A DNA stretch of 57,169 bases from Candidatus Goldiibacteriota bacterium. Its GTDB lineage: Bacteria; Oederibacteriota; PGYV01. The stretch's first letter is position 1, and each line of letters opens with the position of its first letter. A model generated the notes under the pieces. The model was given only the letters and a program-made list of their open reading frames with translations. It ran no database searches and had not been told where the DNA came from. The stretch lies in contig JAFGWA010000113.1 in the NCBI GenBank assembly GCA_016937715.1, positions 1 through 57,169 on the forward strand. The letters run 5' to 3'. A program made the position numbers and the translations under genes. Of this stretch, positions 22,554 to 44,455 are shown piece after piece.

Positions 22554-22874
22554 ATGAAAATAGGGATTGTAATCGCTTCAAATGACGCGGAGACTTGCTG
22601 GAACGCAATCAGGTATGGTAATTTCTGCCTTGGAAAAAAGGAAGAGGTAAAGATTTTTTTTATGGGCAAAGGCGTGGAGTATCAGAAAATAAGCACGGAT
22701 AAATTTAATACGACAGAGCAGGCGGAAAAATTTCTGGCATCCGGCGGCAAAATATTTGCCTGTGGAACCTGTATACAGTCCCGGGAGCAGGAAAGTTCGG
22801 ATGTCTGCCCTTTATCCACCATGCAGGATATGTATGATATCGTAAAAGAAAGCGACACGGTTGTCAGTTTTTAA
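22554..22874 (+). CDS. DsrE/DsrF-like sulfur-relay family protein, copy 1
   Basis: 106 aa: MKIGIVIASNDAETCWNAIR, FFMGKGVEYQ, ACGTCIQSREQESSDVCPL, MQDMYDIVKESDTVVSF. The fold (Rossmann-like opening, FxMGxGV loop, ACGTC, final VVSF) is that of DsrE-like proteins, which carry persulfide sulfur on Cys. C-x-x-C in ACGTC is the candidate site. A near-identical copy with a frameshift lies at 41232 in a rhodanese operon. Confidence 0.85.
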   Translation: MKIGIVIASNDAETCWNAIRYGNFCLGKKEEVKIFFMGKGVEYQKISTDKFNTTEQAEKFLASGGKIFACGTCIQSREQESSDVCPLSTMQDMYDIVKESDTVVSF

Positions 22875-22880: not shown

Positions 22881-23309
22881 ATGAAAAATAAACAAGCGAT
22901 TGAAAAATGTAAAAAAGTATGCGGGGAAAAGGGGTTTAAAGCCACGCCTCAGCGTATTGCTGTATATTCCGAAATAGCATGCAGATATGACCATCCGCCT
23001 GTTGAAAGTATATATTCTTCGGTAAGAAAGAAGCATTCTAGAATATCGTTTGATACTGTTTTTAGAACAATTAATTTATTAGTTGAAATAGGGCTTATAA
23101 AACCGGTCGCGTCGCAGGATGGCGTTAAAAGATTTGACGCAAATAACGGGCAGCATCACCATTTTTACTGTACTAAATGCGGTAAAATTTATGATTTTTT
23201 AAGCGCTTATTATGATGAAATTAAGATACCCGACAAGCTGCCTGATGCTTCTAAAATAACAGGAAAAAAAGTGATGCTGGAAGGTATATGCGAAAAGTGT
23301 AATAAATAG
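22881..23309 (+). CDS. perR: Fur-family regulator, PerR-like
   Basis: 142 aa. Winged helix with FKATPQRIAVYSEIA and the recognition helix SFDTVFRTINLLVEIGL; metal domain with NGQHHHFYCTKCGKIYDF and CEKCNK, giving the structural zinc Cys4. Adjacent to a peroxiredoxin and separated from it by a perfect PerR-type palindrome (23324-23344), hence the PerR assignment: Fe/Mn-dependent repressor that lets go when its His ligands are oxidised by peroxide. It has no box of its own and begins 7 bases after the DsrE-like gene. Confidence 0.85.
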   Translation: MKNKQAIEKCKKVCGEKGFKATPQRIAVYSEIACRYDHPPVESIYSSVRKKHSRISFDTVFRTINLLVEIGLIKPVASQDGVKRFDANNGQHHHFYCTKCGKIYDFLSAYYDEIKIPDKLPDASKITGKKVMLEGICEKCNK

Positions 23310-27236: not shown

Positions 27237-27294
27237 TTGACATTTATACAGTATATTGTATAATTCTAAATGAAAATGATTTTCATTTAGAATT
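27237..27294 (+). promoter_or_regulatory. promoter with Fur box inside a perfect 33-bp palindrome
   Basis: TTGACA (27237-27242), 16-bp spacer, TATAAT (27259-27264). The core TGAAAAT-G-ATTTTCA (27271-27285) is a canonical 7-1-7 Fur box, and the symmetry extends perfectly to 27262-27294. Very similar to 32666-32721. Repression by Fur with iron is expected to block the -10 region. Confidence 0.9.
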
Positions 27295-27313
27295 TGTTTA
27301 AAAGGCGGTTTAT

Positions 27314-27724
27314 ATGGGCGCGGTAAGAGTGGTAGCGGCAAGCACCGGAAACAGTAAAGAATCGGAAATATCCGGCAGTTTTAGCGGGTGCCCTTTTTTT
27401 GCAGTAGCGGATATTTCTGAAGGAAAGGTAAAAAGTATGGTTTTTGTGGATATAGGCTCTGTAAAAGACAAAAGGGCTGAAAGCGCGATAGGGCTGGGGG
27501 CGGATATTTTAATAACCGGCGGTATTGCGGCAAAAGACAGAAACAGGTTTAAGGAAAAAAATATTAAAATGGCGGGTTTTAAAGGTACGGTACAGGAAGC
27601 TTTGAATTTATATATTAAAGATTCAGAAAAGTTACTTGGTGAAAAAATTTATGGTGAAATGCATAACCGCGGCAGGTGTTATTCCTGCCGGATAAAAAAT
27701 ACTTTAAATGAGGAGGATAAATGA
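27314..27724 (+). CDS. NifX-family (dinitrogenase cofactor-type) protein
   Basis: 136 aa, single NifX/NifB-C-like domain: AASTGNSKESEISGSFSGCPFFAVADI, IGLGADILITGGIAAKDRNRF, IKMAGFKGTVQEAL. The C-terminal tail carries a RGRCYSCRIKN CxxC pair, not usual in this family, which may bind zinc or an Fe-S cluster. Family members bind Fe-Mo, Mo-Cu or Fe-S clusters. Overlaps the flavoprotein gene by 4 bases. There is no nitrogenase here, so a nitrogen-fixation role is unlikely. Confidence 0.85.
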   Translation: MGAVRVVAASTGNSKESEISGSFSGCPFFAVADISEGKVKSMVFVDIGSVKDKRAESAIGLGADILITGGIAAKDRNRFKEKNIKMAGFKGTVQEALNLYIKDSEKLLGEKIYGEMHNRGRCYSCRIKNTLNEEDK

Positions 27725-29100
27725 AAAAACATTTTGAACTTGTAATAGTAGGGGGCGGCCCCGCGGGCATTACGCTTGCGAAGAAACTGGGCAGAATTTA
27801 TCATACGGCGGTTATAAGGCCGGAGCCGTACAGTATGATTTACTGCGCTATGCCTTACGCGGTTGAAGGGATTATTGAGAAGGAAAAGACTTTTAAGAAT
27901 GACAGCCTTATTACGGAATCCGGGGCGGAATTGATAAGGGATAAAGCCGAGTCAATAAATGACAAAGAAAATTTTGTCACTCTTAAATCGGGAGAAAAAA
28001 TTTCATATGAAAAACTTGTTATTGTAACGGGCGCGGAACCTTTTTTACCTCCTGTTCCGGGCAGTAAGCTTAAAGGTGTCTATGTATTTAAAACGCAAAA
28101 TGACCTTGAAAAGCTGGAAAGCATGAAAAGTACTCTTAAAAAAATCGCCGTTATCGGGGCAGGGGCTATCGGGATAGAAGCCGCGCAGGCGTTTAACGCT
28201 ATAGGGGTGGAAACCACCCTGATTGATATGGGAAAAAGCGTTCTGCCAAATATGATTGATGAAGATATGTCAATGGAAGCTGTTTCTGAACTTACCGCCA
28301 AAGGTATTAAACTGCATCTTGACAGAAAAGTTGTTGAAATTAAGGGAAAAGAGCACTGTGAATCCGTAATTTTGGATAATGGTTTTGAAATTAACCTTAA
28401 AAATGATATTAACTGCAATATTGACGATGAACCCGGGAAAAGCGGTGCTGTGCTTTTTGTCGCCGGAGTAAAACCGTCTGTTGAACTGGCTGACGGCACG
28501 CGGATAAAAAGCGGGCGTGACGGTATTATTGTAAATGAATATATGGAGACAAGCGTAAAAAATATTTATGCCTGCGGTGACTGTGCTTCTTATGTCAGCG
28601 GTATTACGGGAAAACCATCCGGCGGAAAACTTGCGACAAATGCAGTCCCTATGGCTAAAGTGCTTGCGGATAATTTAAAGGGCGTAAAAAGGCCTTATAC
28701 CGGCTTCTTTAACGGCGCGGCGACAAAAGTAGGAAATCACTATGTAGGCAGCACAGGGCTTAGTGAAAAAGACGCTAAACGAGAGGGTTATGATGTTGTA
28801 ACCGCGGTTTCAGAAATAACGACCAAGTTTCCAATAATGCCGGGCGCTGTAAAGCTAAAGACAAAACTTGTGGCGGATAAAAAAAGCGGAAGGCTTATAG
28901 GCGGTCAGATTGTAAGTAAAGAACCGGTAGCCGCAAGGATAGATGTCCTTACAATGGCGCTTCAGAACAAGATGACGGTGAAGGATCTTGTTGAACACAG
29001 TTACTGCGCGCAGCCTTATCAGTCTTTTTATCCGGCGGAAAACGGCATGGTAATGGCATCAGAAAAACTTTTTGAAAACATGGAAAAAGAAAACAATTAA
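27721..29100 (+). CDS. CoA-disulfide reductase/NADH oxidase-like flavoprotein, copy 1
   Basis: 459 aa. FAD-binding GGGPAG (about 10-15), NAD-binding GAGAIGIEAAQAF (about 144-156) and the active-site Cys in MIYCAMPYAVEG, the position used by CoA-disulfide reductase and NADH oxidase of this family. Near the C-terminus a conserved Tyr pair is suggested by SYCAQPYQSFYP. It reduces CoA disulfide, persulfide or O2 with NAD(P)H. It is Fur-box controlled together with a NifX-type and a ferredoxin gene. Confidence 0.9.
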   Translation: MKKHFELVIVGGGPAGITLAKKLGRIYHTAVIRPEPYSMIYCAMPYAVEGIIEKEKTFKNDSLITESGAELIRDKAESINDKENFVTLKSGEKISYEKLVIVTGAEPFLPPVPGSKLKGVYVFKTQNDLEKLESMKSTLKKIAVIGAGAIGIEAAQAFNAIGVETTLIDMGKSVLPNMIDEDMSMEAVSELTAKGIKLHLDRKVVEIKGKEHCESVILDNGFEINLKNDINCNIDDEPGKSGAVLFVAGVKPSVELADGTRIKSGRDGIIVNEYMETSVKNIYACGDCASYVSGITGKPSGGKLATNAVPMAKVLADNLKGVKRPYTGFFNGAATKVGNHYVGSTGLSEKDAKREGYDVVTAVSEITTKFPIMPGAVKLKTKLVADKKSGRLIGGQIVSKEPVAARIDVLTMALQNKMTVKDLVEHSYCAQPYQSFYPAENGMVMASEKLFENMEKENN

Positions 29101-29116
29101 AATAAGGAGGAAGATT

Positions 29117-29296
29117 ATGAAACTGGCTGTTGATTTAAAAATTTGTACCGGATGCGCGAAGTGTGTTTCTTATTGCCCGTTTGAAGCGATTTCAATTGAA
29201 GATGAAAAGGCAGTGATAGATTATCAGAAATGCGGAGTATGCGGGGCGTGTATTGAAGGCTGCAGGCGCAACGCCCTGTCAATTAAAGAAGGCTGA
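29117..29296 (+). CDS. 2[4Fe-4S] ferredoxin
   Basis: 59 aa from the ATG at 29117 behind AAGGAGG. Two complete motifs: CTGCAKCVSYCP and CGVCGACIEGCRRNAL, with Arg in the place of the usual Pro after the last Cys. A small clostridial-type electron carrier, probably partner of the flavoprotein before it. Confidence 0.94.
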   Translation: MKLAVDLKICTGCAKCVSYCPFEAISIEDEKAVIDYQKCGVCGACIEGCRRNALSIKEG

Positions 29297-29297
29297 T

Positions 29298-29714
29298 ATG
29301 GAAAAAATTAAAATTGTTTTTGGCACGGATAACAATAAAAATTTATGGAAAGGCCATTTTGGCGATTCTGAAATTTTTAATCAATGGTATGTGTATGCCG
29401 GAGGTAAAACCGAATTTGTAAAAAGTTTTATAAATACAAGAAAAGATATGGACGAAAAACACGCGAGCGAGGAAAAACTGAATGCTGTTAAAGCGATGCT
29501 TAATGAATGTGACTGCGCTGTTGCCGTTTCTATGAGCCCGAATTTTAAAAAAATGGCGGAAAATACGGCGCTTCAGCCGTTAATCGTTACTGATTGCGCC
29601 GATGTGCCGGAAATGTTTACTGTAATTGTTAAAAACTTTGATAAAATATCTGAAGAAATAACAAAAAGGAAAAAAGGCGGACGTGAAAAAAACATTCCAA
29701 AGTATGAAAAATAA
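29298..29714 (+). CDS. NifX-family-like protein, divergent
   Basis: 138 aa from the ATG at 29298, 2 bases after the ferredoxin stop. The opening IVFGTDNNKNLWKGHFGDSEIFNQWYV follows the NifX pattern (HFGxSExF), then CDCAVAVSMSPNFKKMAENT and LQPLIVTDCADVPEMFTVIV replace the usual Gly-rich loop. Three Cys. Probable metal or Fe-S cluster carrier of the same group as the products at 27314, 33141 and 33545. Confidence 0.7.
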   Translation: MEKIKIVFGTDNNKNLWKGHFGDSEIFNQWYVYAGGKTEFVKSFINTRKDMDEKHASEEKLNAVKAMLNECDCAVAVSMSPNFKKMAENTALQPLIVTDCADVPEMFTVIVKNFDKISEEITKRKKGGREKNIPKYEK

Positions 29715-29758
29715 AACTTTATTTATTAAAAATAATAAATAAAAAAAATTGTCTGAAT

Positions 29759-30589
29759 ATGGAATTCTGGCAGAATCTTCCTTTAAAAATTAATCCCGTC
29801 CTGTTTCAGGCGGGTTCTTTTCAGATAAGGTACTATGGCCTTATGTATGCCGCGGCTTTTCTAACGGTGTATTTTATTCTGGCATACAGGATAAAAAGAG
29901 AAACCGCGCCTGTTTTTAATACCGTGCTGCTTGAAAATTTTTTGTTATTTGAAATAGCGGGAGTAATGGCGGGCGGAAGGCTTGGGTATGTGTTATTTTA
30001 TGACCTTCAGTACTATATATCAAATCCGTTTCTGATTATATCCCCGTTTGCCATGGAAAATAATAAACTGATTTTTACTGGCATTGCGGGCATGTCATAT
30101 CACGGAGGCCTTATAGGCGCGCTTGCCGCTGCAGCTGTTTTTTGCCGGATGAAAAAAATAAATTTTTGGGTTCTGTCCGATTTTGTCATACCTGCCGTGC
30201 CTGCCGCGTATACTTTTGGAAGAATCGGAAATTTTCTTAATAATGAATTGTATGGCAGGGCTGTATCATCTTTTCCCGGAATGTATTTTAACACGACGGA
30301 AGGGTTAAGTTTAAGGCATCCTTCGCAGTTATATGAAGCGGTTTTTGAAGGGATAGTATTATTCTTTATATTGTGGTCAGTTAGAAATAACAAAACAATG
30401 GAAAAATTATTATTGGGTTTATATATTTTTGGATACGGGCTGTTTCGTTTTTTTATCGAGTTTTTCAGGCAGCCTGACGCGCATTTGGGTTTAATAGGGG
30501 GTTTGTTTTCCATGGGGCAGATACTTTGCCTGATAATGATAACGGCAGGTTTTGGGATTATGGTTTATCAGGTTAAATACCGTTCATAA
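29759..30589 (+). CDS. lgt: prolipoprotein diacylglyceryl transferase
   Basis: 276 aa, seven membrane segments. Conserved Lgt signature GRIGNFLNNELYGR (about 158-171), SYHGGLIGAL with the essential His, MAGGRLGYVLFYD, HPSQLYEAV and the late GYGLFRFFIEFFRQPD. Moves diacylglycerol to the lipobox Cys of prolipoproteins in the inner membrane; the lipoprotein at 47105 is a likely client. Ribosome binding site is poor. Not functionally tied to its redox neighbours. Confidence 0.95.
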   Translation: MEFWQNLPLKINPVLFQAGSFQIRYYGLMYAAAFLTVYFILAYRIKRETAPVFNTVLLENFLLFEIAGVMAGGRLGYVLFYDLQYYISNPFLIISPFAMENNKLIFTGIAGMSYHGGLIGALAAAAVFCRMKKINFWVLSDFVIPAVPAAYTFGRIGNFLNNELYGRAVSSFPGMYFNTTEGLSLRHPSQLYEAVFEGIVLFFILWSVRNNKTMEKLLLGLYIFGYGLFRFFIEFFRQPDAHLGLIGGLFSMGQILCLIMITAGFGIMVYQVKYRS

Positions 30590-30650
30590 TTAATTCTTGA
30601 TTTTTCTCTGTGTTTTTTACATTATATTTTATTCTTACAGCTGTGTTTGA

Positions 30651-30698
30651 TTGACACAAAGGGCAAAATTGTGTAAAATTCATTGAAAATCATTTTCA
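30651..30698 (+). promoter_or_regulatory. promoter with perfect Fur box before the fur gene
   Basis: TTGACA (30651-30656), 17-bp spacer, TAAAAT (30674-30679), then TGAAAAT-C-ATTTTCA (30684-30698), a perfect 7-1-7 Fur box over the likely start of transcription. It implies autoregulation of the fur gene at 30710. Confidence 0.9.
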
Positions 30699-30709
30699 AA
30701 AGGACATAT

Positions 30710-31174
30710 ATGAAAAACGGCAATTGTAACGGGCAGGGCAGGCTTCACGGCAGATTTAAAGGCTGCGGTTTTAAAATGACGCTTGCAAGGCAGGCGGTAT
30801 TGGATGTACTTTCGGATTCAAAAGAACATTTAAGCGCTGAAGAAATATTTATTCTTGCAAAAAAGAAGAATCCGGATATCGGGTTAACCACCATATACAG
30901 GACCACTGAAATACTTTCCCAGCAGGGGTTTTTATACAGGTTTGATTTCGGCGACAAAAGGGCAAGGTTTGAGCTTGCTGATTCTTCCAAAGGCCATCAC
31001 CACCACCTTGTATGCACATCATGCAACCGTGTTATAGATTACGATGATTTTATAGATGAAGAGGTAAAGCTGCTTAAAGAAACAGAGGCAAAACTTTCGA
31101 AAAAGTACAATTTTAAAATAGAAAATCATGTAATTCAATTTTATGGAAAATGCGAAAAATGTTCTAAAATTTAA
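30710..31174 (+). CDS. fur: ferric uptake regulator Fur
   Basis: 154 aa from the ATG at 30710 (AAAGGAC); the in-frame TTG at 30683 lies in the Fur box. N-terminal extension with two Cys (NGNCNGQG, FKGCGFKM), winged helix MTLARQAVLDVL with recognition helix GLTTIYRTTEILSQQG, metal domain GHHHHLVCTSC and GKCEKCSKI. The autoregulated Fur box makes this the best candidate for the regulator of the four TGAWAAT sites in this region. Third Fur-family gene of the window. Confidence 0.9.
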   Translation: MKNGNCNGQGRLHGRFKGCGFKMTLARQAVLDVLSDSKEHLSAEEIFILAKKKNPDIGLTTIYRTTEILSQQGFLYRFDFGDKRARFELADSSKGHHHHLVCTSCNRVIDYDDFIDEEVKLLKETEAKLSKKYNFKIENHVIQFYGKCEKCSKI

Positions 31175-31189
31175 TTTTTTGACTTTAAT

Positions 31190-31204
31190 TGATAATCATT
31201 TTCA
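31190..31204 (+). promoter_or_regulatory. Fur box before the second flavoprotein gene
   Basis: TGATAAT-C-ATTTTCA, a 7-1-7 Fur box with 6 of 7 arm positions matching, 75 bases before the start at 31279. A TTGACT at 31179 precedes it, but no good -10 is visible. Confidence 0.8.
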
Positions 31205-31278
31205 ATTAACCGATGAATTGATTTTTAAATGTTCCAATGTAAAACACAGGTTATTAAAAAATATTTAAGGAGAAAAAC

Positions 31279-32640
31279 ATGGAAAAAACAGATGTACTGG
31301 TAATTGGAGGGGGGCCGGCCGCTATTATTGCCGCCATTACGGCAAAAGTGAATAATCCTGATAAAACAGTGACACTTGCAAGAAAATTCGAGAAGGTTAT
31401 GGTGCCGTGCGGTATTCCTTATATTTTTGGAACGCTTAATGATGTTCAGAAGAATGTTATGGGCGACGCTCCCATGCAGGCTGTTGACGTAAAAATAGTA
31501 ATAAACGAAGCTGTTAAAATAGACCTTAAAGGAAAAAAAGTGTCTTTTGCTGACGGGCTGGAAATTGAATATGAAAAACTTGTTATTGCAACGGGTTCCG
31601 CCACATTAAAACCTAATTGGCTTGAAGGCAGGGAAAAAAAGGGTGTTTATTATGTTGAAAAAAATATAGAGTATCTTACAAAACTTTTTGAAGAACTTAA
31701 AAAGGTAAACAGCGTTGTTGTTGTAGGCGGAGGGTTTATCGGGGTTGAAATGGCGGAAGAACTTGTAAAATCCGGAAAACGGGTGACAGTGGTTGAAAAA
31801 ATGCCGCATGTTTTAATGGCTGCTTTTGACGCGGATATTTCAGAACAGGCTGAAAAGGTTTTGATAGAAAGGGGCGTTATTATAAGGTCGGGTGTAGGAA
31901 TTAAGAAAATAACCGGCGGCGATAAAGCTGAAGGCGTTGAACTGGAAGACGGCAGCAAAATACAGGCAGATGCTGTTATTCTGGCTATGGGATACACTCC
32001 TGAAGTTCAGCTTGCGAAAGACGCGGGAATAGACACCAACCAGTTTGGTTTTATAAGAGCGGATGAATATATGAGAACAATATGCTGTGATAATGTTTTT
32101 GCCTGCGGCGACTGTGCTGAAAAAAGGGATTTTATAACAAGAAAAGTAAGCAGGACAATGCTTGCTTCCACCGCGACTACAGAAGCAAGGACTGCCGGAA
32201 TGAACCTGTTTAAACTTTCTGTGGAAAAATCTTTTGGCGGGACGATTTCAATTTTTGATACAAAGTTTGGCATATTTGGTTTTGGCGTGGCGGGTGTCAC
32301 AGAAAATAACGCCAAGGCGGAAAGAATGGATTATGTTACAGGAGAGTTTGCCGGTTTTGACAGGCATCCCGGAACACTTCCGGATACCGGGAAACAGTAT
32401 GTAAAACTTATTGCTTTAAAAGATACCGGAACCGTAATAGGCGGACAGGTCTGCGGCGCTGCAAGCGCGGGCGAGATAACAAATCTGATAGGCCTTGCCA
32501 TTCAGAATAAAATGAATGTATATTCCTTAATAACTTCACAGATAGGCACGCATCCGCTTTTAACTTCGGCCCCTACAAATTATCCGCTTATTAAAGCAGC
32601 TGAAGCAGCCATGAAAAAAATGAAAATCGGTTCAAAATAA
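31279..32640 (+). CDS. CoA-disulfide reductase/NADH oxidase-like flavoprotein, copy 2
   Basis: 453 aa. FAD site GGGPAAII (about 9-16), redox Cys in MVPCGIPYIFG (about 41-51), NAD site GGGFIGVEMAEEL (about 152-164), FAD-binding ACGDCAEK near 275. Distinct from the copy at 27721 (about a third identical by eye) and closer to archaeal-type NADH oxidase/CoA-disulfide reductases. Alone behind a Fur box. Likely reduces persulfide or disulfide of CoA, or O2, using NAD(P)H. Confidence 0.9.
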   Translation: MEKTDVLVIGGGPAAIIAAITAKVNNPDKTVTLARKFEKVMVPCGIPYIFGTLNDVQKNVMGDAPMQAVDVKIVINEAVKIDLKGKKVSFADGLEIEYEKLVIATGSATLKPNWLEGREKKGVYYVEKNIEYLTKLFEELKKVNSVVVVGGGFIGVEMAEELVKSGKRVTVVEKMPHVLMAAFDADISEQAEKVLIERGVIIRSGVGIKKITGGDKAEGVELEDGSKIQADAVILAMGYTPEVQLAKDAGIDTNQFGFIRADEYMRTICCDNVFACGDCAEKRDFITRKVSRTMLASTATTEARTAGMNLFKLSVEKSFGGTISIFDTKFGIFGFGVAGVTENNAKAERMDYVTGEFAGFDRHPGTLPDTGKQYVKLIALKDTGTVIGGQVCGAASAGEITNLIGLAIQNKMNVYSLITSQIGTHPLLTSAPTNYPLIKAAEAAMKKMKIGSK

Positions 32641-32665
32641 GGTAAATTTTAAAAAGTAAAAAATC

Positions 32666-32721
32666 TTGACTTTTTTTGCATATAGGATATAATTCTAAAT
32701 GAAAATGATTTTCATTTAGAA
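32666..32721 (+). promoter_or_regulatory. promoter with Fur box inside a perfect 29-bp palindrome
   Basis: TTGACT (32666-32671), 16-bp spacer, TATAAT (32688-32693), then TGAAAAT-G-ATTTTCA (32700-32714) with symmetry extending to 32693-32721. The stretch from TATAAT to the end of the palindrome is the same as at 27259-27292. It controls the long DUF5320-NifX-MinD operon. Confidence 0.9.
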
Positions 32722-32735
32722 AGGAGGTGAAATAT

Positions 32736-33068
32736 ATGCCAAGAGGAGATGGAACAGGCCCTACAGGCGCGGGTTCAATGACCGGCAGGGCAATGGGTTT
32801 ATGCGCCGGAAATTCGGTGCCCGGGTATGTTAACGGCGGTTTTGGAAGAGGAATGGGATCCGGGCGCGGATTTGGTTTTGGAAGAGGTTCAGGACGCGGT
32901 TTTGGGCGTGGTTTTGGAAGGGGTTTTGGTTTTTTTGGAAACAGCGCGTATGCGCCGGTTTCGGTTAACGAAAAAGAAATGTTAAAAAATGAAACATCGG
33001 TTCTTGAGAATCAGTTAAAAGCTCTTAAACAGAGACTGGATGAACTTGAAAAAACTGATAACAAGTAA
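32736..33068 (+). CDS. DUF5320-family Gly-rich protein
   Basis: 110 aa from the ATG at 32736 (AAAGGAGGTG upstream). Begins MPRGDGTGPTGAGSMTGR, the hallmark of DUF5320, followed by a FGRGxGxGRG-type repeat (residues about 38-68) and a C-terminal coiled-coil (EKEMLKNETSVLENQLKAL). Such proteins accompany NifX and MinD/Mrp ATPases in anaerobes; function unknown. The Gly/Arg stretch may be flexible, and only one Cys is present. Confidence 0.85.
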   Translation: MPRGDGTGPTGAGSMTGRAMGLCAGNSVPGYVNGGFGRGMGSGRGFGFGRGSGRGFGRGFGRGFGFFGNSAYAPVSVNEKEMLKNETSVLENQLKALKQRLDELEKTDNK

Positions 33069-33140
33069 AGCATCCGGTATGGCCAGGCGCCTGGCTGTGC
33101 CGGTAAACGTGATTTGAAAATATTATATGGAGGTAATAAA

Positions 33141-33527
33141 TTGAAATACGCAATTTCTACGGATAACGGAAGTGTATCACAGCATTTTGGAAGATGCCCG
33201 CAGTTTACAATTTTGGATATAAATGAAGGAAAGGTGACAGGAAAAAAAATGGTTTCAAATCCCGGACATGAACCCGGTTTTCTGCCAAAATTTTTAGGCG
33301 GGCAGGGTGTAAATGTAATGGTTGCCGGCGGCATGGGGCCAAGTGCTGTAAGTTTGTTTCAGCCGCAGAATATTGAAGTTATTTTGGGAGTGTCGGGAAG
33401 TATTGATGAGGTAATAGAAGAAATAACAAAAGGAAGCCTTAAAGGCGGCGACAGCACCTGCAATCCGGGCGGCGGAAAAGGTTATGGATTGGATAAAACC
33501 GTATGTGACCACGGAAACGAAAAATAA
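33141..33527 (+). CDS. NifX-family Fe-Mo/Fe-S cluster-binding-type protein
   Basis: 128 aa from TTG at 33141 (TGGAGGTAATAAA before it); the ATG at 33126 would be out of register. KYAISTDNGSVSQHFGRCPQFTILDI, NVMVAGGMGPSAVSLFQPQN and IEVILGVSGSIDEVIEEI are the family blocks. The tail GGDSTCNPGGGKGYG has an extra Cys. Orange-protein type NifX members bind a Mo-Cu or Fe-S cluster; the actual cluster here is unknown. Confidence 0.9.
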   Translation: MKYAISTDNGSVSQHFGRCPQFTILDINEGKVTGKKMVSNPGHEPGFLPKFLGGQGVNVMVAGGMGPSAVSLFQPQNIEVILGVSGSIDEVIEEITKGSLKGGDSTCNPGGGKGYGLDKTVCDHGNEK

Positions 33528-33544
33528 AAGAGGAGATTATAAGT

Positions 33545-33901
33545 ATGAAAATCTGTATCAGTTCAAAGGGAAATAAAATATCGGATGAAATGGATCCAAG
33601 GTTCGGCAGATGCGCCAATCTTATAGTTTATGATACTGATTCAGGTGAATTTGAATCCGCGGAGAATTCAAGTGTGCAGCTTTCAGGCGGGGCGGGTATT
33701 CAGACCGCGCAGTTTATAGTTTCAAAAGGGGTAAAAGCAGTGATTTCCGGAAGTTTCGGGCCGAATGCTTTTAATACTTTAAAAGCCGCGGGAATTGAAA
33801 TGTATACTGCTGCCGGCGGTACGGTTGAAGATGTTATAAAAAATTTTAAAGAAGGAAAGCTGAAAAAGTCTGAAGATGCGGGAGCGTCATTTAAGCATTA
33901 A
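33545..33901 (+). CDS. NifX-family protein
   Basis: 118 aa. MKICISSKGNKISDEMDPRF, GRCANLIVYDTDSGEFE, VKAVISGSFGPNAFNTLK and AGGTVEDVIKNFKEG are typical. Single Cys-rich feature: GRCAN, equivalent to GRCPQ in the previous gene. A neighbouring pair of NifX proteins, one with and one without the Cys tail, suggests a hetero-oligomer or a carrier-acceptor pair. AGAGGAG before the ATG. Confidence 0.9.
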   Translation: MKICISSKGNKISDEMDPRFGRCANLIVYDTDSGEFESAENSSVQLSGGAGIQTAQFIVSKGVKAVISGSFGPNAFNTLKAAGIEMYTAAGGTVEDVIKNFKEGKLKKSEDAGASFKH

Positions 33902-33919
33902 ATAAAAAGGGGGAGTGTT

Positions 33920-34225
33920 ATGCCGGAATTTGGATCGCCTTTTTCAGGGCTTGCGAAAGATAAAAAGTTAACAGATGCCGAACTTGTACGCGCTATAAGG
34001 TTTATGGTGGCGGCAGAATATGAAGCTATTCAGCTTTATATGCAGCTTGCGGAATCAACAGATAACAAACTTGCACAAGAGGTTTTGAAGGATATAGCCG
34101 ATGAAGAACGGGTTCACGCGGGCGAGTTTTTAAGATTGTTAAAAGAACTGGCGCCGGATGAAGACGGTTTTTATAATGAAGGCGCAAAAGAAGTTGAAGA
34201 AGAAATAGAAAAATTTAAAAAATAA
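33920..34225 (+). CDS. rubrerythrin/encapsulated-ferritin-like two-helix protein
   Basis: 101 aa: after MPEFGSPFSGLAKDKKL a helix RAIRFMVAAEYEAIQLYMQL, then AQEVLKDIADEERVHAGEFL. Glu in AAEYEAIQLY and ExxH in DEERVHAGE supply half of a di-iron site, so a dimer or decamer forms the complete ferroxidase centre, as in EncFtn/half-ferritins. Likely oxidises and holds Fe2+. No encapsulin shell gene is in the window. Fits an iron-controlled operon. Confidence 0.85.
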   Translation: MPEFGSPFSGLAKDKKLTDAELVRAIRFMVAAEYEAIQLYMQLAESTDNKLAQEVLKDIADEERVHAGEFLRLLKELAPDEDGFYNEGAKEVEEEIEKFKK

Positions 34226-34241
34226 AAGGAGCGTGGTTTAT

Positions 34242-34466
34242 ATGCCAAGAGGCGACGGAACAGGGCCGCAGGGAAGCGGATGCGGAACAGGACGCAAAAT
34301 GGGAAAACAGGCCGGCAATAAAGCGGGCGGGATGGGAATTGGAACACCAAGAGGAGCCGGAAGCGGCACAGGCGCGGGCAGAGGCGCGGGAGGCGGTATG
34401 GGTTCAGGAAAGGGAAGCGGAAGGGGAGCCGGAAAGGGTGCCGGTAGAAATAGAAGCGGATTATAA
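34242..34466 (+). CDS. second DUF5320-like Gly-rich protein
   Basis: 74 aa from the ATG at 34242 (AAAGGAG upstream; a GTG at 34233 is too close to it). Begins MPRGDGTGPQGSGCGTGRKM and continues as a Gly/Ser/Arg/Lys stretch (GKGSGRGAGKGAGR). Same start as the gene at 32736, but without a coiled coil. One Cys. Strong positive charge suggests contact with nucleic acid or an acidic partner. Function unknown. Confidence 0.75.
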   Translation: MPRGDGTGPQGSGCGTGRKMGKQAGNKAGGMGIGTPRGAGSGTGAGRGAGGGMGSGKGSGRGAGKGAGRNRSGL

Positions 34467-34468
34467 AT

Positions 34469-35107
34469 ATGACCATGGCGGCAAAAGGCGAATTTTCTGA
34501 AGAAGAGCTTGAAAAAAATAAAAAAGTTTATTTGTCAAGGCTTGAGCTTTACAAAAGTTACGGTTATGACAATGAAAAAGAGAGGCTTTTTATAATAAAT
34601 GCCGCTGAACCTTTTGGCGGCAGTGTGCTTGAAGCCGGAACCGGAAAAGGACATCTTGCCCTTGCAATCGCGAAAAAAGGGCATAAGCTTATTACTTATG
34701 ACGTTGATGATACAAATCAGCGTTACGCAAGGATGAATATTGATTCGGCCGGTTTAAGTGAAAAAGTTAAATTTTTAATTGAAAGCAAAGAAAAATTAAG
34801 TTTTAAGGACAACAGTTTTGACACTGTTTTCTGCGTTAACACGCTTCATCATCTGCGGGATTCCGCAATAGTGCTGGATGAATTAATAAGGGTGTTATCG
34901 GATAACGGAAAATTTATCCTCAGTGATTTTACAAAAAAAGCCTTTGATGTTATGGATGTTATACACAGAAATGACGGAAATGAACATGAAGTTGTAGGGT
35001 GGAGTATGGATAAAGCGGCGGAATTTTTGAAAAGTAAGGGCTGTATCATCACGGAAACGGCTGATGAGTATCAAACGGTATATATAATAAGGAAAGGTGT
35101 AAAATGA
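34469..35107 (+). CDS. class I SAM-dependent methyltransferase
   Basis: 212 aa. SAM motif I VLEAGTGKGHLALAIAKKG (about 50-68), acidic loop TYDVDD, motif II FDTVFCVNTLHHL, motif III LIRVLSDNGKFILSDF. Small-molecule type fold; target unknown. Starts 3 bases after the DUF5320-like gene and ends 4 bases into the MinD-type gene, so it is part of the Fur-controlled operon. Confidence 0.88.
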   Translation: MTMAAKGEFSEEELEKNKKVYLSRLELYKSYGYDNEKERLFIINAAEPFGGSVLEAGTGKGHLALAIAKKGHKLITYDVDDTNQRYARMNIDSAGLSEKVKFLIESKEKLSFKDNSFDTVFCVNTLHHLRDSAIVLDELIRVLSDNGKFILSDFTKKAFDVMDVIHRNDGNEHEVVGWSMDKAAEFLKSKGCIITETADEYQTVYIIRKGVK

Positions 35108-35976
35108 TAATAGCGGTGGCAAGCGGAAAGGGCGGCACCGGGAAAACCACGGTTGCCGTAAATTTCGCCCTTTCAATAGATAACGCGCAGCTTCTTGATT
35201 GTGATGTTGAAGAGCCAAATTCGCATTTGTTTTTAAAACCGGAAATAACTGACAGAAAAAAATCTGTTGTTTTGGTTCCCAGGGTAAATCACGATATATG
35301 TACTTACTGCCAAAGGTGCAGGGAAGTATGCGCTTATGGCGCTATAGCTGTTATCCCCCCTTCTGCCGGTAAAGGAAAAGGGCAGGTTTTAATTTTTGAC
35401 AACCTTTGCCACAGCTGCGGCGCCTGCGTTATGCTTTGCCCTGAAAAAGCCATGTTTGAAGAAGAACGGGAAACCGGAATTATAGAAACAGGGAAAGCGG
35501 GAAAGGTTGATTTTACACACGGCAGGCTTAACTTAAAAGAAGCCATGTCTCCGCCCCTTATTAAACAGGTAAAAAAAGGCATTAATAAGGAAAAAATTTC
35601 CATTATTGATTCTCCTCCGGGGACATCGTGCCCTGTTATTGCGTCGGTTAAGGGCGCTGATTTTGTGCTGCTTGTAACCGAACCCACGCCTTTTGGATTA
35701 AATGACCTTAAACTTGCGGTTGAAACCGTTAAAACATTAAATTTACCGGTTGGAATAGTGATTAACAGGTCGTGTGAAAATGACCATCTTATTGAAGATT
35801 ACAGTAAAAGGGAAAAGATACCCGTTATGATGAAAATACCTTTTGACAGGAATATAGCGGTGGCTTATTCAAAAGGGATTAATATCGTTGAGGTTATGCC
35901 TGAATACATGGAAAAGTTTAAAGGGCTTTTAAATTTAATCACCTCCCGTATTGCGGGAAAGGGGGGTGTTCAATGA
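35104..35976 (+). CDS. MinD-superfamily P-loop ATPase with inserted ferredoxin domain, A
   Basis: 290 aa. Deviant Walker A SGKGGTGKTTVAVNFAL (about 6-22), an inserted 2[4Fe-4S] domain at about 64-115 (CTYCQRCREVCAYGAI and CHSCGACVMLCPEKAM), then IIDSPPGTSCPV (Walker B region) and VTEPTPFGLNDL. COG1149-type proteins form pairs and act with NifX-family proteins, for example in the orange-protein complex. ATP-dependent cluster loading or transfer is the likely role. Overlaps the next gene by 4 bases. Confidence 0.93.
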   Translation: MIIAVASGKGGTGKTTVAVNFALSIDNAQLLDCDVEEPNSHLFLKPEITDRKKSVVLVPRVNHDICTYCQRCREVCAYGAIAVIPPSAGKGKGQVLIFDNLCHSCGACVMLCPEKAMFEEERETGIIETGKAGKVDFTHGRLNLKEAMSPPLIKQVKKGINKEKISIIDSPPGTSCPVIASVKGADFVLLVTEPTPFGLNDLKLAVETVKTLNLPVGIVINRSCENDHLIEDYSKREKIPVMMKIPFDRNIAVAYSKGINIVEVMPEYMEKFKGLLNLITSRIAGKGGVQ

Positions 35977-36833
35977 AACAGATTGTTGTTATAAGCGGCA
36001 AGGGCGGAACAGGAAAAACTATTTTTTCTTCTTCTTTTGCCGTGCTTGCCAAAAACAGCGTGGCCGCGGACTGTGATGTGGATGCGGCGAATATGCACCT
36101 GCTTTTGCATCCGCAGATTGAAGAAAGGCATGAATTTATGGCGGGTCAAAAAGCGGTGCTGGATAAAGAGCAATGCATAAAATGCGGAAAATGCGTCGAA
36201 GCGTGCAGGTTTGAAGCTATAAGTGATGGCTATATAATTGACGCCGCGGCGTGCGAAGGGTGCGGGTTGTGCCAAAGAATATGCCCGGTGAAAGCCATTA
36301 AGATGAAACCAAGCACGGCCGGAGAGTGGTTTGTTTCAAAGACTAAATACGGCCCTTTTATTCACGCCAGACTTGGAATTGCCGAAGATAATTCAGGAAA
36401 GCTTGTAAGCAAAGTAAGGGAAGCGGCAAAGAAAAAAGCTGAAGATATAAATGCTTCTTATATTATAGTGGACGGACCTCCCGGAACAGGATGCCCTGTA
36501 ATGGCGGCAATTACCGGTGTTGACCTTGCTGTTGTAGTAACCGAACCTACAGTATCGGGCGTGCATGATTTAAAAAGAGTCGCGGAAGTGCTTGGCCACT
36601 TTAAGATAAAAGCGGGAATTGTGGTTAATAAAAGCGATATAAATACTGAAAAAACCTCTGAAATAAAAGAATTTGCTTTAAAATCCGGCATGATTTTTTT
36701 TGGGGAGCTGTCTTTTTCCAAAGAGGTAAGCGATGCCGTCATAAACTGCAAACCGCCTGTTGAATACTGCGGTGAAAATATAACAGGTAAAATTAAGGAA
36801 ATATGGAAATCTGTAGAAACGGCTTCAAACTGA
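35973..36833 (+). CDS. MinD-superfamily P-loop ATPase with inserted ferredoxin domain, B
   Basis: 286 aa. Walker A SGKGGTGKTIFSSSFAV, inserted ferredoxin at about 60-110 (CIKCGKCVEACRFEAI and CEGCGLCQRICPVKAI), IIVDGPPGTGCPVMAA and VVTEPTVSGVHDLKRV. Paralogue of the previous gene and presumably its heterodimer partner. Ends the core of the Fur-controlled operon; the radical SAM gene follows 21 bases later. Confidence 0.93.
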   Translation: MKQIVVISGKGGTGKTIFSSSFAVLAKNSVAADCDVDAANMHLLLHPQIEERHEFMAGQKAVLDKEQCIKCGKCVEACRFEAISDGYIIDAAACEGCGLCQRICPVKAIKMKPSTAGEWFVSKTKYGPFIHARLGIAEDNSGKLVSKVREAAKKKAEDINASYIIVDGPPGTGCPVMAAITGVDLAVVVTEPTVSGVHDLKRVAEVLGHFKIKAGIVVNKSDINTEKTSEIKEFALKSGMIFFGELSFSKEVSDAVINCKPPVEYCGENITGKIKEIWKSVETASN

Positions 36834-36854
36834 TCCGCTGAAAGGAGATATAAA

Positions 36855-37625
36855 ATGGATTATAAATATATTTACGGCCCTGTGCCTTCGTGGAGGCTGG
36901 GAAGTTCGCTTGGAATAGACCCTCTTTCACAGAAGGAAAAAATATGTACTTTTGACTGCGCGTACTGCCAGATAGGGAAAACAAAATTTTTTACGGAAAA
37001 AAGGGATGTTTTTGTTGAAACAAAAGATATAATTGAAGAAATAAAAAAACTTCCCAAAGTGCATATTGATTATATTACATTTTCCGGAAGGGGTGAACCC
37101 ACCCTGGCATCCAATCTAGGTGAAATGATAAGGGCTGTAAAGGAAATAAGAAAAGAAAAAACAGCTGTTATTACAAATTCATCGCTTCTTAATCTGTATG
37201 AGGTTCAGTCTGATATTGCGGCCGCTGATTTTGTTGTGGCAAAACTTGACGCGGTTTCGGATGATGTTTATAAAAAGTTAAATAACGCGGTTAAAGGACC
37301 TGATATTAAAACCATTATTCAATCGCTGAAGGCGTTTAGAAAAAAATATAAGGGGCGGCTTGCGCTGCAGATTATGTTTATTAAGGATAATAAAGACAGC
37401 GCTTTGGAAATCGCGAAAATTGCCAAAAAAATAGGCGCTGATGAAATTCAGATTAATACCCCTTTAAGGCCCTGCGCTGTAAAACCTTTAAGCAGGGAAG
37501 AAATTGAAGATATATGCAGGGTGTTTAAAGGTATGAATACCATAAATGTTTATGATTCCCATAAAACGGATGTAAAGCCGGTAAGCGGTTCTGACACAAT
37601 GATTAGAAGAGGGAAGGTATTGTGA
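36855..37625 (+). CDS. radical SAM protein
   Basis: 256 aa. Opens with YIYGPVPSWRLGSSLGIDPL, then the cluster motif CTFDCAYCQIGKT (CxxxCxxC, about 34-41), FSGRGEPTLASN (GEP motif) and a TIM-barrel body. This layout (Gly-Pro-Val-Pro-Ser-x-Arg-Leu-Gly-x-Ser-Leu-Gly) marks a widespread uncharacterised radical SAM family in anaerobes and archaea. Its substrate is unknown. Probably co-transcribed with the MinD pair and coupled to def by a 2-base gap. Confidence 0.88.
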   Translation: MDYKYIYGPVPSWRLGSSLGIDPLSQKEKICTFDCAYCQIGKTKFFTEKRDVFVETKDIIEEIKKLPKVHIDYITFSGRGEPTLASNLGEMIRAVKEIRKEKTAVITNSSLLNLYEVQSDIAAADFVVAKLDAVSDDVYKKLNNAVKGPDIKTIIQSLKAFRKKYKGRLALQIMFIKDNKDSALEIAKIAKKIGADEIQINTPLRPCAVKPLSREEIEDICRVFKGMNTINVYDSHKTDVKPVSGSDTMIRRGKVL

Positions 37626-37626
37626 T

Positions 37627-38106
37627 ATGGCAAAGAAAGGTATTGAAACCGGTTTAATAAAGGTATATCCTGATTCAATTCTTCGCGTCAGAAGCACAGA
37701 AGTTGAAAAAATAGGGCATTTGGAGAAAGTCCTTTTCAGGCAGATGCTGGAAATAATGAAAGCGTTTAAAGGTGTCGGGATTGCAGCTCCTCAGATAGGC
37801 ATATCGCGGAGGCTGATTGTTGTTGATACGGGAGAAGGCCCTGTTTTTATGGCAAATCCAAGGATAATAAACGGAAGCGGCCTGGAAGTAATGGAAGAAG
37901 GGTGTTTAAGCGTTCCGGGCGCGCTTGTGGACGTTTCAAGAAAAAGCAATGTGACGGTCACAGGGATTAATGAAAAAGGAAAATTTAAGGAAATTAAAGC
38001 CGAAGGGTTCTTTGCAAGGGCGCTTCAGCATGAAATAGACCATCTTGAAGGGAAACTTATAATTGATTATATGCCTTTTGATGATAAAATAAAATTTGGG
38101 ATGTAA
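37627..38106 (+). CDS. def: peptide deformylase
   Basis: 159 aa. All three motifs: GVGIAAPQIG (about 47-56), EEGCLSVPG (about 92-100), QHEIDHLEGKL (about 134-144), giving the Cys/His/His metal site and the catalytic Glu. Removes the formyl group from nascent proteins using Fe2+ or Ni2+. Starts 2 bases after the radical SAM gene. Confidence 0.96.
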   Translation: MAKKGIETGLIKVYPDSILRVRSTEVEKIGHLEKVLFRQMLEIMKAFKGVGIAAPQIGISRRLIVVDTGEGPVFMANPRIINGSGLEVMEEGCLSVPGALVDVSRKSNVTVTGINEKGKFKEIKAEGFFARALQHEIDHLEGKLIIDYMPFDDKIKFGM

Positions 38107-41231: not shown

Positions 41232-41553
41232 ATGAAAATCGGGATTGTAATCGCTTCAAATGACGCGGAAACATGCTGGAATGCTATACGGTACGGAAAT
41301 TTCTGCCTTGGAAAAAAAAGAAGAGGTAAAAATATTTTTTATGGGCAAAGGCGTGGAGTATCAGAAAATAAGCACGGATAAATTTAACACAATAGAACAG
41401 GCGGAGAAATTTCTGGCATCCGGCGGTAAAATATTTGCCTGTGGAACCTGTATGCAGTCCCGTGAGCAGGAAAGTTCGGATGCGTGTCCTTTGTCCACAA
41501 TGCAGGATATGTATGATATTGTCAAAGAAAGTGATAAGGTAGTAAGCTTCTAA
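41232..41553 (+). pseudogene. DsrE-like protein, copy 2, frameshifted at an A8 run
   Basis: Near-identical to the gene at 22554. The ATG at 41232 reads MKIGIVIASNDAETCWNAIR, then a run of eight As (41312-41319), where copy 1 has six As and a G; one base too many shifts the frame, and the true sequence goes on (EEVKIFFMGKGVEYQKIS...VVSF) to 41553. Everything else, including the ACGTC site and ribosome binding site TGGAGGAA, is intact. A sequencing error, a fresh mutation or RNA polymerase slippage restoring the frame are all possible. Leads the rhodanese operon. Confidence 0.85.
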
Positions 41554-41595: not shown

Positions 41596-42567
41596 ATGAA
41601 AAAGAAAGGTGAAATTAAAAGGAACACGGGTGCGGAACACAAAAAAGATATTATGTTTATTAACGCGGCAATTATAATTGTTTCAATAATGGGGGCTGCA
41701 GGCGTTTTTTTGGGAATTAAAAACTCTTCACCTGTGCAGGACGTGCCGGCAGTATCGCAGGGGCAGCCGTATGCCGTGGACGGACGTTATAAGCACCTGT
41801 TTAGGGATGTCAATTCCAAAGAAGCGATACTTAAGATTCATATTGACGAGGCAAAAGTGCTTTTTGAAAGCAATATGGCGGTTTTTGTGGATTCAAGAAG
41901 CGTTAATGAATACAACCAGTCGCATATAAAAGGCGCGGTTTCTATACCTGCCGGTACACCTTCGGATAAAATCAGCGAAAAGAAAAGCGAGCTTAATAAT
42001 AAAGTTCTTGTAACTTATTGCAGCGGTACAGGGTGCCGTCTTGCGGATAAAGCCGCGCATGTTTTATTTGATATGGGTTATAAAAAAATTGTAATTTTTT
42101 TCGGTGGCTGGCCGGAATGGACGCAGGCGGGTATGCCGGTTGAGGAATATAAAATACCGGAAAAATATCTGCCCCTTTATCAGGAAGCCCCTTCAGCGGG
42201 AGAGATAAAAAAAATAAACCTTGAACAGGCAAAATTTCTTTATGATAACGCTGCGGCGCATTTTGTGGATGTTGACACGGTTGAAAACTTTTCAAAAATG
42301 AGGATAAAAGGCTCTCATTCAGTGCCGTTGGAAATGTTCGGAGAAATGGTGCCGAAATTTAAAGTATATATGCTTCAGAAACCTGTTGTTGTTTTCAGCC
42401 ATAAAGGTGAAGAGAAAGCGGCGGAAGCGGCAAAACTTCTTTATAAAGACGGAATAAAAAGGGTTTTAATATTTCCTGACGGAATAATGTACTGGGACAG
42501 GGCCGACTACCCGATGGTAAAAGCTTCAAAAACAATTAAACTGCAGGCATTGCAATCAAATAATTAG
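41596..42567 (+). CDS. membrane-anchored tandem rhodanese with one inactive domain
   Basis: 323 aa. N-terminal membrane helix (about 18-36), then rhodanese domain 1 with active C142 in VTYCSGTGCRLADKA and IFFGGWPEWTQAG, and rhodanese domain 2, where the active position is S268 (VVVFSHKGEEKAA), so it cannot carry persulfide. Periplasmic side expected. Sulfur transfer from thiosulfate or a persulfide donor. Paralogous to the product at 44483, in which both Cys are kept. Confidence 0.9.
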   Translation: MKKKGEIKRNTGAEHKKDIMFINAAIIIVSIMGAAGVFLGIKNSSPVQDVPAVSQGQPYAVDGRYKHLFRDVNSKEAILKIHIDEAKVLFESNMAVFVDSRSVNEYNQSHIKGAVSIPAGTPSDKISEKKSELNNKVLVTYCSGTGCRLADKAAHVLFDMGYKKIVIFFGGWPEWTQAGMPVEEYKIPEKYLPLYQEAPSAGEIKKINLEQAKFLYDNAAAHFVDVDTVENFSKMRIKGSHSVPLEMFGEMVPKFKVYMLQKPVVVFSHKGEEKAAEAAKLLYKDGIKRVLIFPDGIMYWDRADYPMVKASKTIKLQALQSNN

Positions 42568-42576
42568 GAGGAACAG

Positions 42577-43359
42577 ATGAGTGTAATTGATGACATTAAG
42601 AACGGCGCAGCAGGGATTAAAAATATCGTGGCGGTGGCAAGCGGAAAAGGCGGTGTGGGTAAATCTACGGTTACCGCAAATCTGGCGATAGCCCTTGCCA
42701 AACAGGGGTATAAGACAGCTGTGGTTGACGCGGATGTTTACGGGCCCACCATGCCTTCATTTTTTGGGATATATACAAGGCCTGTAATGAAAGATAATAA
42801 ATTAATACCTGTTGAAAAAAACGGTGTAAAAATAATGTCAATAGGGTTTATGCTGGATGACTATTCCGCTGTTATATGGCGCGGGCCTATGATTATGGGC
42901 GCTATAAAACAGTTTATAGCTGATACAGAGTGGGGCGATATTGACATAATGTTAATTGACCTGCCCCCCGGCACAGGCGACGCGCCTTTGACAATATGCC
43001 AGGCGCTGCCGCTTAAAGGCGGGCTTATTGTTTCCACTCCGCAGGCTGCTGCCGCAAAGACGGCCGCGCGCGCTGCCGACCTGTTCAGGCAGATGAATGT
43101 TCCGGTTTTAGGCGCTGTGCTTAATATGTCATATTTAATCTGCGAATCGTGCGGCAAAAAGAATACTGTGTTTCCGTCAAGCGGGGCGGCGCTTCTTAAA
43201 AATGAAGCAGGGCTTGATATTATTGCGGAACTTCCTTTTTATGACGGTTTTATGGAAGAAACAGTTCCGGGAGAAATTACACATATTGAAAATGACAAAG
43301 CCGCAGCGCAGGCTTTTGATGAACTTGCAAAAAAAGTAGTTAAGGCATGTGTATTATAA
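42577..43359 (+). CDS. mrp: Mrp/NBP35-family Fe-S cluster carrier ATPase
   Basis: 260 aa. Deviant Walker A SGKGGVGKSTVTANLA (about 23-38), DADVYGPTMPSFFG, LIDLPPGTGDAPLTIC and the cluster-binding pair in ICESCGKKN. Holds a bridging 4Fe-4S cluster in a dimer and delivers it to apo-proteins. Lacks the N-terminal MIP18 domain of longer Mrp proteins. Inside the rhodanese operon, so sulfur and cluster delivery may be linked. AGGAGGA before the ATG. Confidence 0.94.
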   Translation: MSVIDDIKNGAAGIKNIVAVASGKGGVGKSTVTANLAIALAKQGYKTAVVDADVYGPTMPSFFGIYTRPVMKDNKLIPVEKNGVKIMSIGFMLDDYSAVIWRGPMIMGAIKQFIADTEWGDIDIMLIDLPPGTGDAPLTICQALPLKGGLIVSTPQAAAAKTAARAADLFRQMNVPVLGAVLNMSYLICESCGKKNTVFPSSGAALLKNEAGLDIIAELPFYDGFMEETVPGEITHIENDKAAAQAFDELAKKVVKACVL

Positions 43360-43360
43360 A

Positions 43361-44068: not shown

Positions 44069-44083
44069 AAGCGGGGTGCTGAT

Positions 44084-44455
44084 ATGGGAATAAAAGAAAG
44101 GGTTGTAGTGCTTGGAGCAAGCCATAAGCCGGAAAGATATTCTTACAAGGCGATACAGGCTCTTTTAAATAACGGGCATGAGGTAATACCTGTAAATCCG
44201 GCGTTAAAAGAGGTGCTGGGTCTTAAAGTGATTAATAAACTTGAAGAAATATCCGGCAAGGTGGACACAGTCACATTGTATGTGGGGCCTGAAAGGCTTG
44301 CGCAGATGGCGGATGAAATTGTAAATTTAAAACCCAAACGCATAATTGCCAATCCCGGCGCCGAATCAGAAATTATGCGTCTTGCAGCTGATAAAAATAA
44401 AATTGAATATGAAGAAGCGTGCACTCTTGTGCTTCTTTCAACAGGGCAGTTTTAA
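44084..44455 (+). CDS. CoA-binding domain protein
   Basis: 123 aa, a single Rossmann-like CoA_binding_2 domain: VVVLGASHKPERYSYKAIQAL, HEVIPVNPALKEVLG, VDTVTLYVGPERL, ANPGAESEIMRLA, CTLVLLSTGQF. Members bind CoA through a conserved loop. With the two CoA-disulfide-reductase-like flavoproteins elsewhere in the window, a CoA-persulfide chemistry is conceivable. Confidence 0.9.
   Translation: MGIKERVVVLGASHKPERYSYKAIQALLNNGHEVIPVNPALKEVLGLKVINKLEEISGKVDTVTLYVGPERLAQMADEIVNLKPKRIIANPGAESEIMRLAADKNKIEYEEACTLVLLSTGQF

Follow-up and report, generated by a model that had tools for sequence, protein, structure and literature searches.

What would lead a bacterium to place NifX proteins and ferredoxin-bearing MinD ATPases behind promoters that carry Fur boxes? 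The question is raised by a gene cassette on a 57,169-nt contig of a Candidatus Goldiibacteriota bacterium (JAFGWA010000113.1; this whole stretch of DNA is called the window below), part of a 2.59-Mb draft genome, G000. To our knowledge, there is no agreed function for orange-protein (ORP) complexes, nor for the numerous NifX proteins found outside nitrogenase. An initial annotation described the cassette as a strictly Fur-controlled NifX/DUF5320/MinD-ferredoxin system without nitrogenase, likened it to ORP clusters, and suggested a machine for the storage or repair of iron and iron-sulfur (Fe-S) clusters.

In this study, we examine how the cassette is regulated, how its genes are linked in relatives, and what role this suggests. 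The regulation and the linkage are well supported by sequence comparison, and we infer the chemistry from the protein families involved. The new element appears from these comparisons to be the regulator, a clade of Fur proteins tied to NifX, the ORP core itself being known. The reading that we favor, and that we consider about evenly balanced between right and wrong, is an iron-repressed, Fur-autoregulated, IssA-like variant of ORP-type NifX/MinD systems, which would buffer iron sulfide and supply Fe-S clusters at times of scarce free Fe(II).

Protein families were assigned with Pfam and NCBIfam. Fur boxes were counted in whole genomes by pattern searches, and their significance in windows was judged by comparison with shuffled windows. 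The promoter scan covered a 6-kb region, with sigma-70-like motifs scored out of 12. Relatives were collected by scanning a profile of MinD1, one of the cassette ATPases, over 84,980 species, which gave 80 loci in many anaerobic phyla (loci are numbered L, genomes G). The window's Fur was searched against 50 genomes carrying related cassettes, a Fur profile was searched in 45 genomes of the window's own phylum, and the search for NifDKEN-type proteins took in 58 genomes.

Fur boxes at the cassette promoters

Four canonical Fur boxes had been reported for the cassette, and all four hold: each matches TGAWAATNATTWTCA with 0 mismatches, against an expectation of 0 sites of this kind in a shuffled window (Table 1). 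Perfect TGAAAATNATTTTCA sites number three in the 2.59-Mb genome, every one within the cassette locus, and the remaining 1-mismatch sites examined lie within coding sequences or at their edge. Perfect boxes are likewise confined to the cassette in G012 (1/1) and G045 (1/1), as in G000 (3/3). The 29-bp palindromes that enclose boxes 1 and 4 are identical. Three of the boxes lie 4-6 bases downstream of the -10 elements of the three best promoters in the region (12/12, 11/12 and 11/12), a position at which a bound repressor would block initiation. As judged from these sites, the cassette Fur is autoregulated, and its boxes also lie over both NifX-operon promoters and before FlavB, a flavoprotein gene.

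The box is identical to that of delta-proteobacterial Fur regulons, WTGAAAATNATTTTCAW, and fur is autoregulated in both cases; the targets given in the passages of that report consulted include feoAB, porins, flavodoxin and others but no NifX or ORP genes, in which the cassette differs (PMC545781). For feoB in the window, we detected no canonical Fur box, so the cassette Fur looks dedicated rather than global. The three Fur-family genes of the genome all lie on the window's contig, at 5927-6388 by feoB, ZIP and znuAB, at 22881-23309 by peroxiredoxin, and at 30710-31174 by the NifX cassette. The first stands in a metal transport block (4655-14284) of feoB, ZIP, ZnuA-/ZnuB-like genes, DUF1007 and an RcnA-like gene.

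A Fur clade that accompanies NifX

The cassette Fur belongs to a clade of 13 genes from the window's own phylum, Omnitrophota, WOR-3, Thermodesulfobacteriota and Bacillota, which form one group in the tree (support 91/88). NifX adjoins fur in all 13, and in 13/13 a box with at most 2 mismatches stands upstream and/or downstream of fur (p ≤0.025 by shuffling). Among the 80 loci, fur directly precedes the cassette in six (two of Omnitrophota, one each of WOR-3, Thermodesulfobacteriota and Bacillota, and one unclassified), and the six best matches to the window's Fur among the 50 cassette genomes are exactly those six cassette-adjacent genes. Within the window's phylum, seven strong Fur-profile matches in six genomes all adjoin NifX or DUF5320-NifX, and none of five weak matches lies beside NifX; at one strong match (copy a of G005), the contig ends within the neighboring DUF5320 gene. 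The idea that relatives keep the Fur boxes and linkage is thus mostly borne out; where it falls short is the bare NifX-MinD-MinD core, which is widespread in anaerobes without Fur.

Two genomes reduce the regulated unit further. In G001, of the same genus, only box-fur-NifX is present, and in G010 only box-fur-box-NifX. The constant partner of the clade Fur is thus NifX, and the regulated unit can exist without the MinD ATPases. In L064, the genes immediately upstream are feoAB and a DtxR-type regulator.

All 13 clade Furs carry the motif HHHHLVC..C...IDY, or a version with I for V. The ligand position that corresponds to Asp104 of PerR is Asp in 13/13 clade Furs and Glu in the other Fur-type proteins aligned, a difference reported to decide the access of H2O2 to iron in PerR (Asp104) versus Fur (Glu) (PMC4866751). 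Together with a Glu at the position of Asp85, read by eye from the alignment, this arrangement resembles PerR3 (PMC4866751). The clade Fur nevertheless differs from PerR, which senses H2O2 through oxidation of histidine, and from PerR3 in its Fur-type operator and its linkage to NifX rather than to peroxide genes, and it shares the domain, operator type and autoregulation of the iron repressor Fur but not its Glu ligand. With its PerR-type Asp, the NifX-linked Fur may respond to oxidation in addition to iron, and oxidation might also relieve repression. Iron control, as first described, is supported by the boxes and promoters; its strictness is uncertain, given this ligand.

The ORP core and its DUF5320 companions

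Among the 80 related loci, the MinD pair is present in 76, NifX in 73 and DUF5320 in 32. The core of the cassette, two NifX proteins and two MinD ATPases with 2x[4Fe-4S] each, is by sequence the ORP set (Orp3/Orp4/Orp8); in ORP complexes, Orp8 binds a Mo-Cu sulfide cluster. The complex of D. vulgaris comprises Orp3, Orp4, Orp5, Orp8 and Orp9/MrpORP, and within it Orp3/Orp4 receive Fe-S clusters from MrpORP (PMC6345978). The likeness drawn by the initial annotation is confirmed by the tandem ATPases, which have the Orp3/Orp4 architecture, and by NifXd, which matches D. gigas ORP (2wfb, E 1.5e-15); an Mrp ATPase is also nearby. This Mrp, however, is a single-domain protein outside the operon, 5.7 kb away, with PF10609 only and without PF02579, whereas MrpORP is an Mrp fused to a NifX domain and encoded within the ORP cluster. 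The cassette further differs in its adjacent Fur and sigma-70-like promoters, as against sigma-54 in D. vulgaris (PMC6345978), and it adds the DUF5320 pair, flavoproteins, an encapsulated-ferritin-like protein, a methyltransferase and a radical SAM protein. In L033 (5388-5855), a DUF134 regulator, which starts other ORP-like cassettes of the phylum, takes the place of Fur. We found no Fur-regulated ORP or NifX system outside diazotrophs in the open-access literature.

The DUF5320 proteins suggest a second comparison. DUF5320a is 25% Gly, Arg/Phe-rich and of isoelectric point (pI) 10.0, and its structure model is disordered with one C-terminal helix. NifX and DUF5320 are joined in a single open reading frame (ORF) in L071 (E 1.4e-10), L081 (3.8e-9) and L089 (2e-7); an Arg/Gly stretch ending in a zinc-ribbon-like part is joined to NifXd in L064 and encoded by a gene of its own in L060 and L072. 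IssA, the thioferrate storage protein of P. furiosus, has a NifX-type domain with a Gly/cationic/aromatic tail, for which a role in enfolding the anionic thioferrate has been proposed (PMC5524996). The fusions in relatives and the IssA-like make-up point to DUF5320 acting as a tail in trans, and suggest that it corresponds to the cationic tail of an IssA-like protein, detached from its NifX domain. The cassette shares with IssA the NifX-type domain (IPR003731; PF02579 in NifXa, c and d; the MTH1175 match) and a disordered Gly/cationic/aromatic element, here the separate DUF5320 and fused in relatives. The differences are that the window's NifX proteins carry no such C-terminal tail on the same polypeptide, that the cassette has MinD ATPases and Fur, and that IssA is sulfur-responsive.

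The physiology of M. voltae grown on FeS2 bears on the direction of regulation. There, the levels of IssA homologues increase alongside those of FeoB and DtxR, markers of iron starvation, which the authors read as FeS being taken up while the cells sense no free Fe(II) (PMC8516115). By analogy, an iron-repressed NifX cassette would fit this logic better than storage of surplus iron.

Discussion

We picture the favored role as follows. A drop in free Fe(II), for example where iron is present as dissolved FeS, would release apo-Fur from its boxes and allow the cassette to be made. NifX and the cationic, Arg/Gly-rich DUF5320, as a tail in trans, would hold anionic iron-sulfide clusters or polymers, for which the flavoproteins related to coenzyme A (CoA) disulfide and persulfide reductases, with the nearby rhodaneses and DsrE, could supply reduced sulfur. 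MinD1 and MinD2 might load or release clusters using ATP and their own [4Fe-4S], and Mrp might carry them to apoproteins. A bolder version, which we hold to be rather unlikely, is a mobile two-part particle system: NifX and the detached DUF5320 tail would form thioferrate-like particles, run by the MinD ATPases and by a dedicated Fur-family sensor of free Fe(II) and, via the PerR-type ligand, of oxidation.

Several observations weigh against a buffering system of this kind. No biochemistry was found for any DUF5320, and the shared Gly/Arg make-up can be convergent. DUF5320 is missing from L056, where fur and the core are present, and in 30 of the 80 loci NifX is accompanied neither by DUF5320 nor by a recognized Arg/Gly tail; the core can thus do without a tail. 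The MinD pair is absent from G001 and G010, and the support of 91/88 for the Fur clade is only moderate.

The strongest competitor, though clearly the weaker candidate, is a plain ORP complex that has acquired another regulator and keeps the usual ORP role (polar localization, with proposed functions in division or redox), iron control having arisen because the proteins are rich in Fe-S. The core composition is indeed that of ORP, and the regulator of ORP-like cores looks interchangeable, since such cores are found with sigma-54 in D. vulgaris (PMC6345978) and, in L033, next to a DUF134 regulator. Iron-rich proteins are usually repressed in low iron, however, whereas the geometry of the cassette predicts induction, and the retention of fur and NifX without the MinD pair in G001 and G010 points to NifX as the regulated function. 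A peroxide or oxidative-damage response, in which a PerR-like sensor with a Fur-type operator would control Fe-S repair, sulfur reduction and ferritin, seems improbable. The Asp ligand of all 13 NifX-linked Furs, a residue tied to the H2O2 sensitivity of PerR (PMC4866751), and the peroxiredoxin, thioredoxin-like and glutaredoxin-like genes of the same segment speak for it, but a separate PerR-like gene already stands beside peroxiredoxin, and the boxes are of the Fur type, identical to the delta-proteobacterial Fur box (PMC545781).

Storage of surplus iron or Fe-S, with Fe-Fur as an activator, we regard as quite improbable. The IssA homology and the encapsulated-ferritin-like gene would suit it, and through IssA the earlier proposal of iron/Fe-S storage or repair stays plausible in general; the boxes just downstream of the -10 elements, however, occupy a repressor position, fur lies under the same box, and this geometry predicts expression at low Fe(II). 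Least probable by far is service to nitrogenase, with the NifX proteins as accessories to FeMo-cofactor assembly. NifX does handle precursors of this cofactor in diazotrophs (PMC5524996), and another contig of the genome, C28, carries a cluster of genes resembling nifH-I1-I2-D-K-E-N-B (H, I and B identified by eye, from their sequences and arrangement). The phrase "without nitrogenase" is therefore right for the window itself, and for most genomes with related cassettes, but not for this genome, although the cassette lies outside its nif cluster. NifDKEN-type proteins occur in 12 of the 58 genomes, leaving 46 without, and among the ten other Fur-linked genomes only G044 has any: two, scoring 231 and 154 bits, against about 350-450 bits for those of the window's genome. 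These counts argue that the cassette is not a nitrogenase accessory, and its promoters bear Fur boxes, not nitrogen control. As a general role, the nitrogenase link was rejected by this search.

The proposed buffering of iron sulfide under Fur control has wider implications. The NifX family, so far lacking a physiological signal, would gain one, free iron and perhaps oxidants, from a Fur clade that is strictly tied to it across several phyla. Finding the same repressor next to NifX in distantly related bacteria suggests a transferable means of managing iron sulfide when free iron is short. The NifX-DUF5320 fusions provide a functional lead for DUF5320, for which the literature searched gave only two passing mentions, and may connect ORP with IssA-type handling of iron sulfide.

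Gene content and neighborhood

As first mapped at 27237-37625, the cassette runs NifXa-FlavA-ferredoxin-(NifXb), lgt, fur and FlavB, followed by the main operon, DUF5320a-NifXc-NifXd-half-ferritin-DUF5320b-methyltransferase-MinD1-MinD2-radical SAM (Table 1). Peptide deformylase, typically an Fe(II) enzyme, starts 1 bp after the radical SAM gene, and by this spacing the main operon probably continues through it. Most of the genes first listed were recovered with Pfam or NCBIfam, with two shortfalls. NifXb has no Pfam match, matches the NifX profile weakly (hhalign probability 5%) and gives a poor AlphaFold model (mean pLDDT 51); DUF5320b falls under the Pfam cut-off (19.2 versus 27 bits) though it has the shared start MPRGDGTGPQG. 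FlavA and FlavB are closest to CoA-disulfide/CoA-persulfide reductases, with C-x-x-P-Y at the active-site position in both, as read by eye. The half-ferritin finds its best matches in encapsulated ferritins (EncFtn; 7s8t and 5n5e); no encapsulin was recognized by eye in the window, and no genome search aimed at an encapsulin shell gene was made.

Table 1. Features of the cassette and its surroundings, with window coordinates
Feature	Coordinates	Strand	Evidence
dsrE, left copy	22554..22874	+	DsrE Pfam; 89% identical to 41232-41553
Promoter 1, sigma-70-like, TTGACA-16-TATAAT	27237..27264	+	12/12, best in 6-kb region
Fur box 1, in 29-bp palindrome	27264..27292; core 27271-27285	.	Sequence, pattern search, shuffling
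NifXa	27314..27724	+	PF02579 E 7.6e-10
FlavA, CoA-disulfide-reductase-like flavoprotein	27721..29100	+	Pyr_redox_2 E 2.5e-52; TIGR03385 E 6.7e-73, below its cut-off
2x[4Fe-4S] ferredoxin	29117..29296	+	Fer4 E 3.3e-12
NifXb, possible divergent NifX (unproven)	29298..29714	+	hhalign E 0.008; 46% homologue beside FlavA-ferredoxin in G005
fur promoter, TTGACA-17-TAAAAT	30651..30679	+	11/12
Fur box 2	30684..30698	.	Pattern search, shuffling
fur, NifX-linked clade, Asp110 ligand	30710..31174	+	PF01475 E 9.1e-31; tree; ligand residues
Fur box 3, TGATAATCATTTTCA, precedes FlavB	31190..31204	.	Pattern search, shuffling
FlavB, second CoA-disulfide-reductase/CoA-persulfide-reductase-like flavoprotein	31279..32640	+	Pfam; PDB 3cgb E 1e-49, 8a56 E 8.5e-33
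Main-operon promoter, TTGACT-16-TATAAT	32666..32693	+	11/12
Fur box 4, 29-bp palindrome	32693..32721; core 32700-32714	.	Pattern search, shuffling
DUF5320a	32736..33068	+	PF17253 E 1e-25
NifXc, TM1816/PH0822-like	33141..33527	+	PF02579 E 8.8e-23
NifXd, ORP (Orp8)-like	33545..33901	+	PF02579 E 2.2e-25; MTH1175 1.4e-23; D. gigas ORP 2wfb 1.5e-15
Half-ferritin, encapsulated-ferritin-like	33920..34225	+	EncC 7s8t E 1.3e-13; P. furiosus 5n5e E 9e-13
DUF5320b, 42% Gly, pI 12	34242..34466	+	Sub-threshold Pfam; composition
Class I methyltransferase	34469..35107	+	PF08241 E 1.2e-19
MinD1, P-loop ATPase, 2x[4Fe-4S] insert, Orp3/Orp4 architecture	35104..35976	+	Pfam
MinD2, paired ATPase with 2x[4Fe-4S]	35973..36833	+	Pfam; paired in 76/80 loci
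Radical SAM protein	36855..37625	+	PF04055 E 8.2e-17; near cassette in 11/80 loci
Peptide deformylase	37627..38106	+	PF01327 E 1.5e-43; near cassette in L030, L035, L064
dsrE, right copy, frameshifted	41232..41553	+	Alignment to left copy
Mrp/NBP35 ATPase, single domain	42577..43359	+	PF10609 290.7 bits

The two dsrE copies bound the cassette segment in direct orientation, spaced 18,678 bp apart; G001 has one copy. The flanks of the segment align with G001 at 81-84%, and there only fur and NifX lie between dsrE and mrp, so either G000 acquired the segment or G001 lost most of it. The searches of G002 gave no match to MinD1 or dsrE and no strong Fur match. To the right, 41596-45987 holds two double-rhodanese proteins, Mrp, and MBL-fold, CoA-binding and DoxX-like genes, mostly also present in G001, and is a conserved sulfur/Fe-S neighborhood.

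Two relatives carry additional enzymes. The cassette of G005 (L030:1167-1631) has an S-adenosylmethionine decarboxylase between DUF5320b and the methyltransferase, and in L059 (11660-12268) an ORF resembling pyruvoyl-dependent arginine decarboxylase, recognized by eye from its start, follows MinD2; the two together hint at a polyamine link. Elsewhere in the window, an AdoCbl-II (adenosylcobalamin) riboswitch (40 bits) at 18505-18592 immediately precedes a MetE-like gene that starts at 18633.

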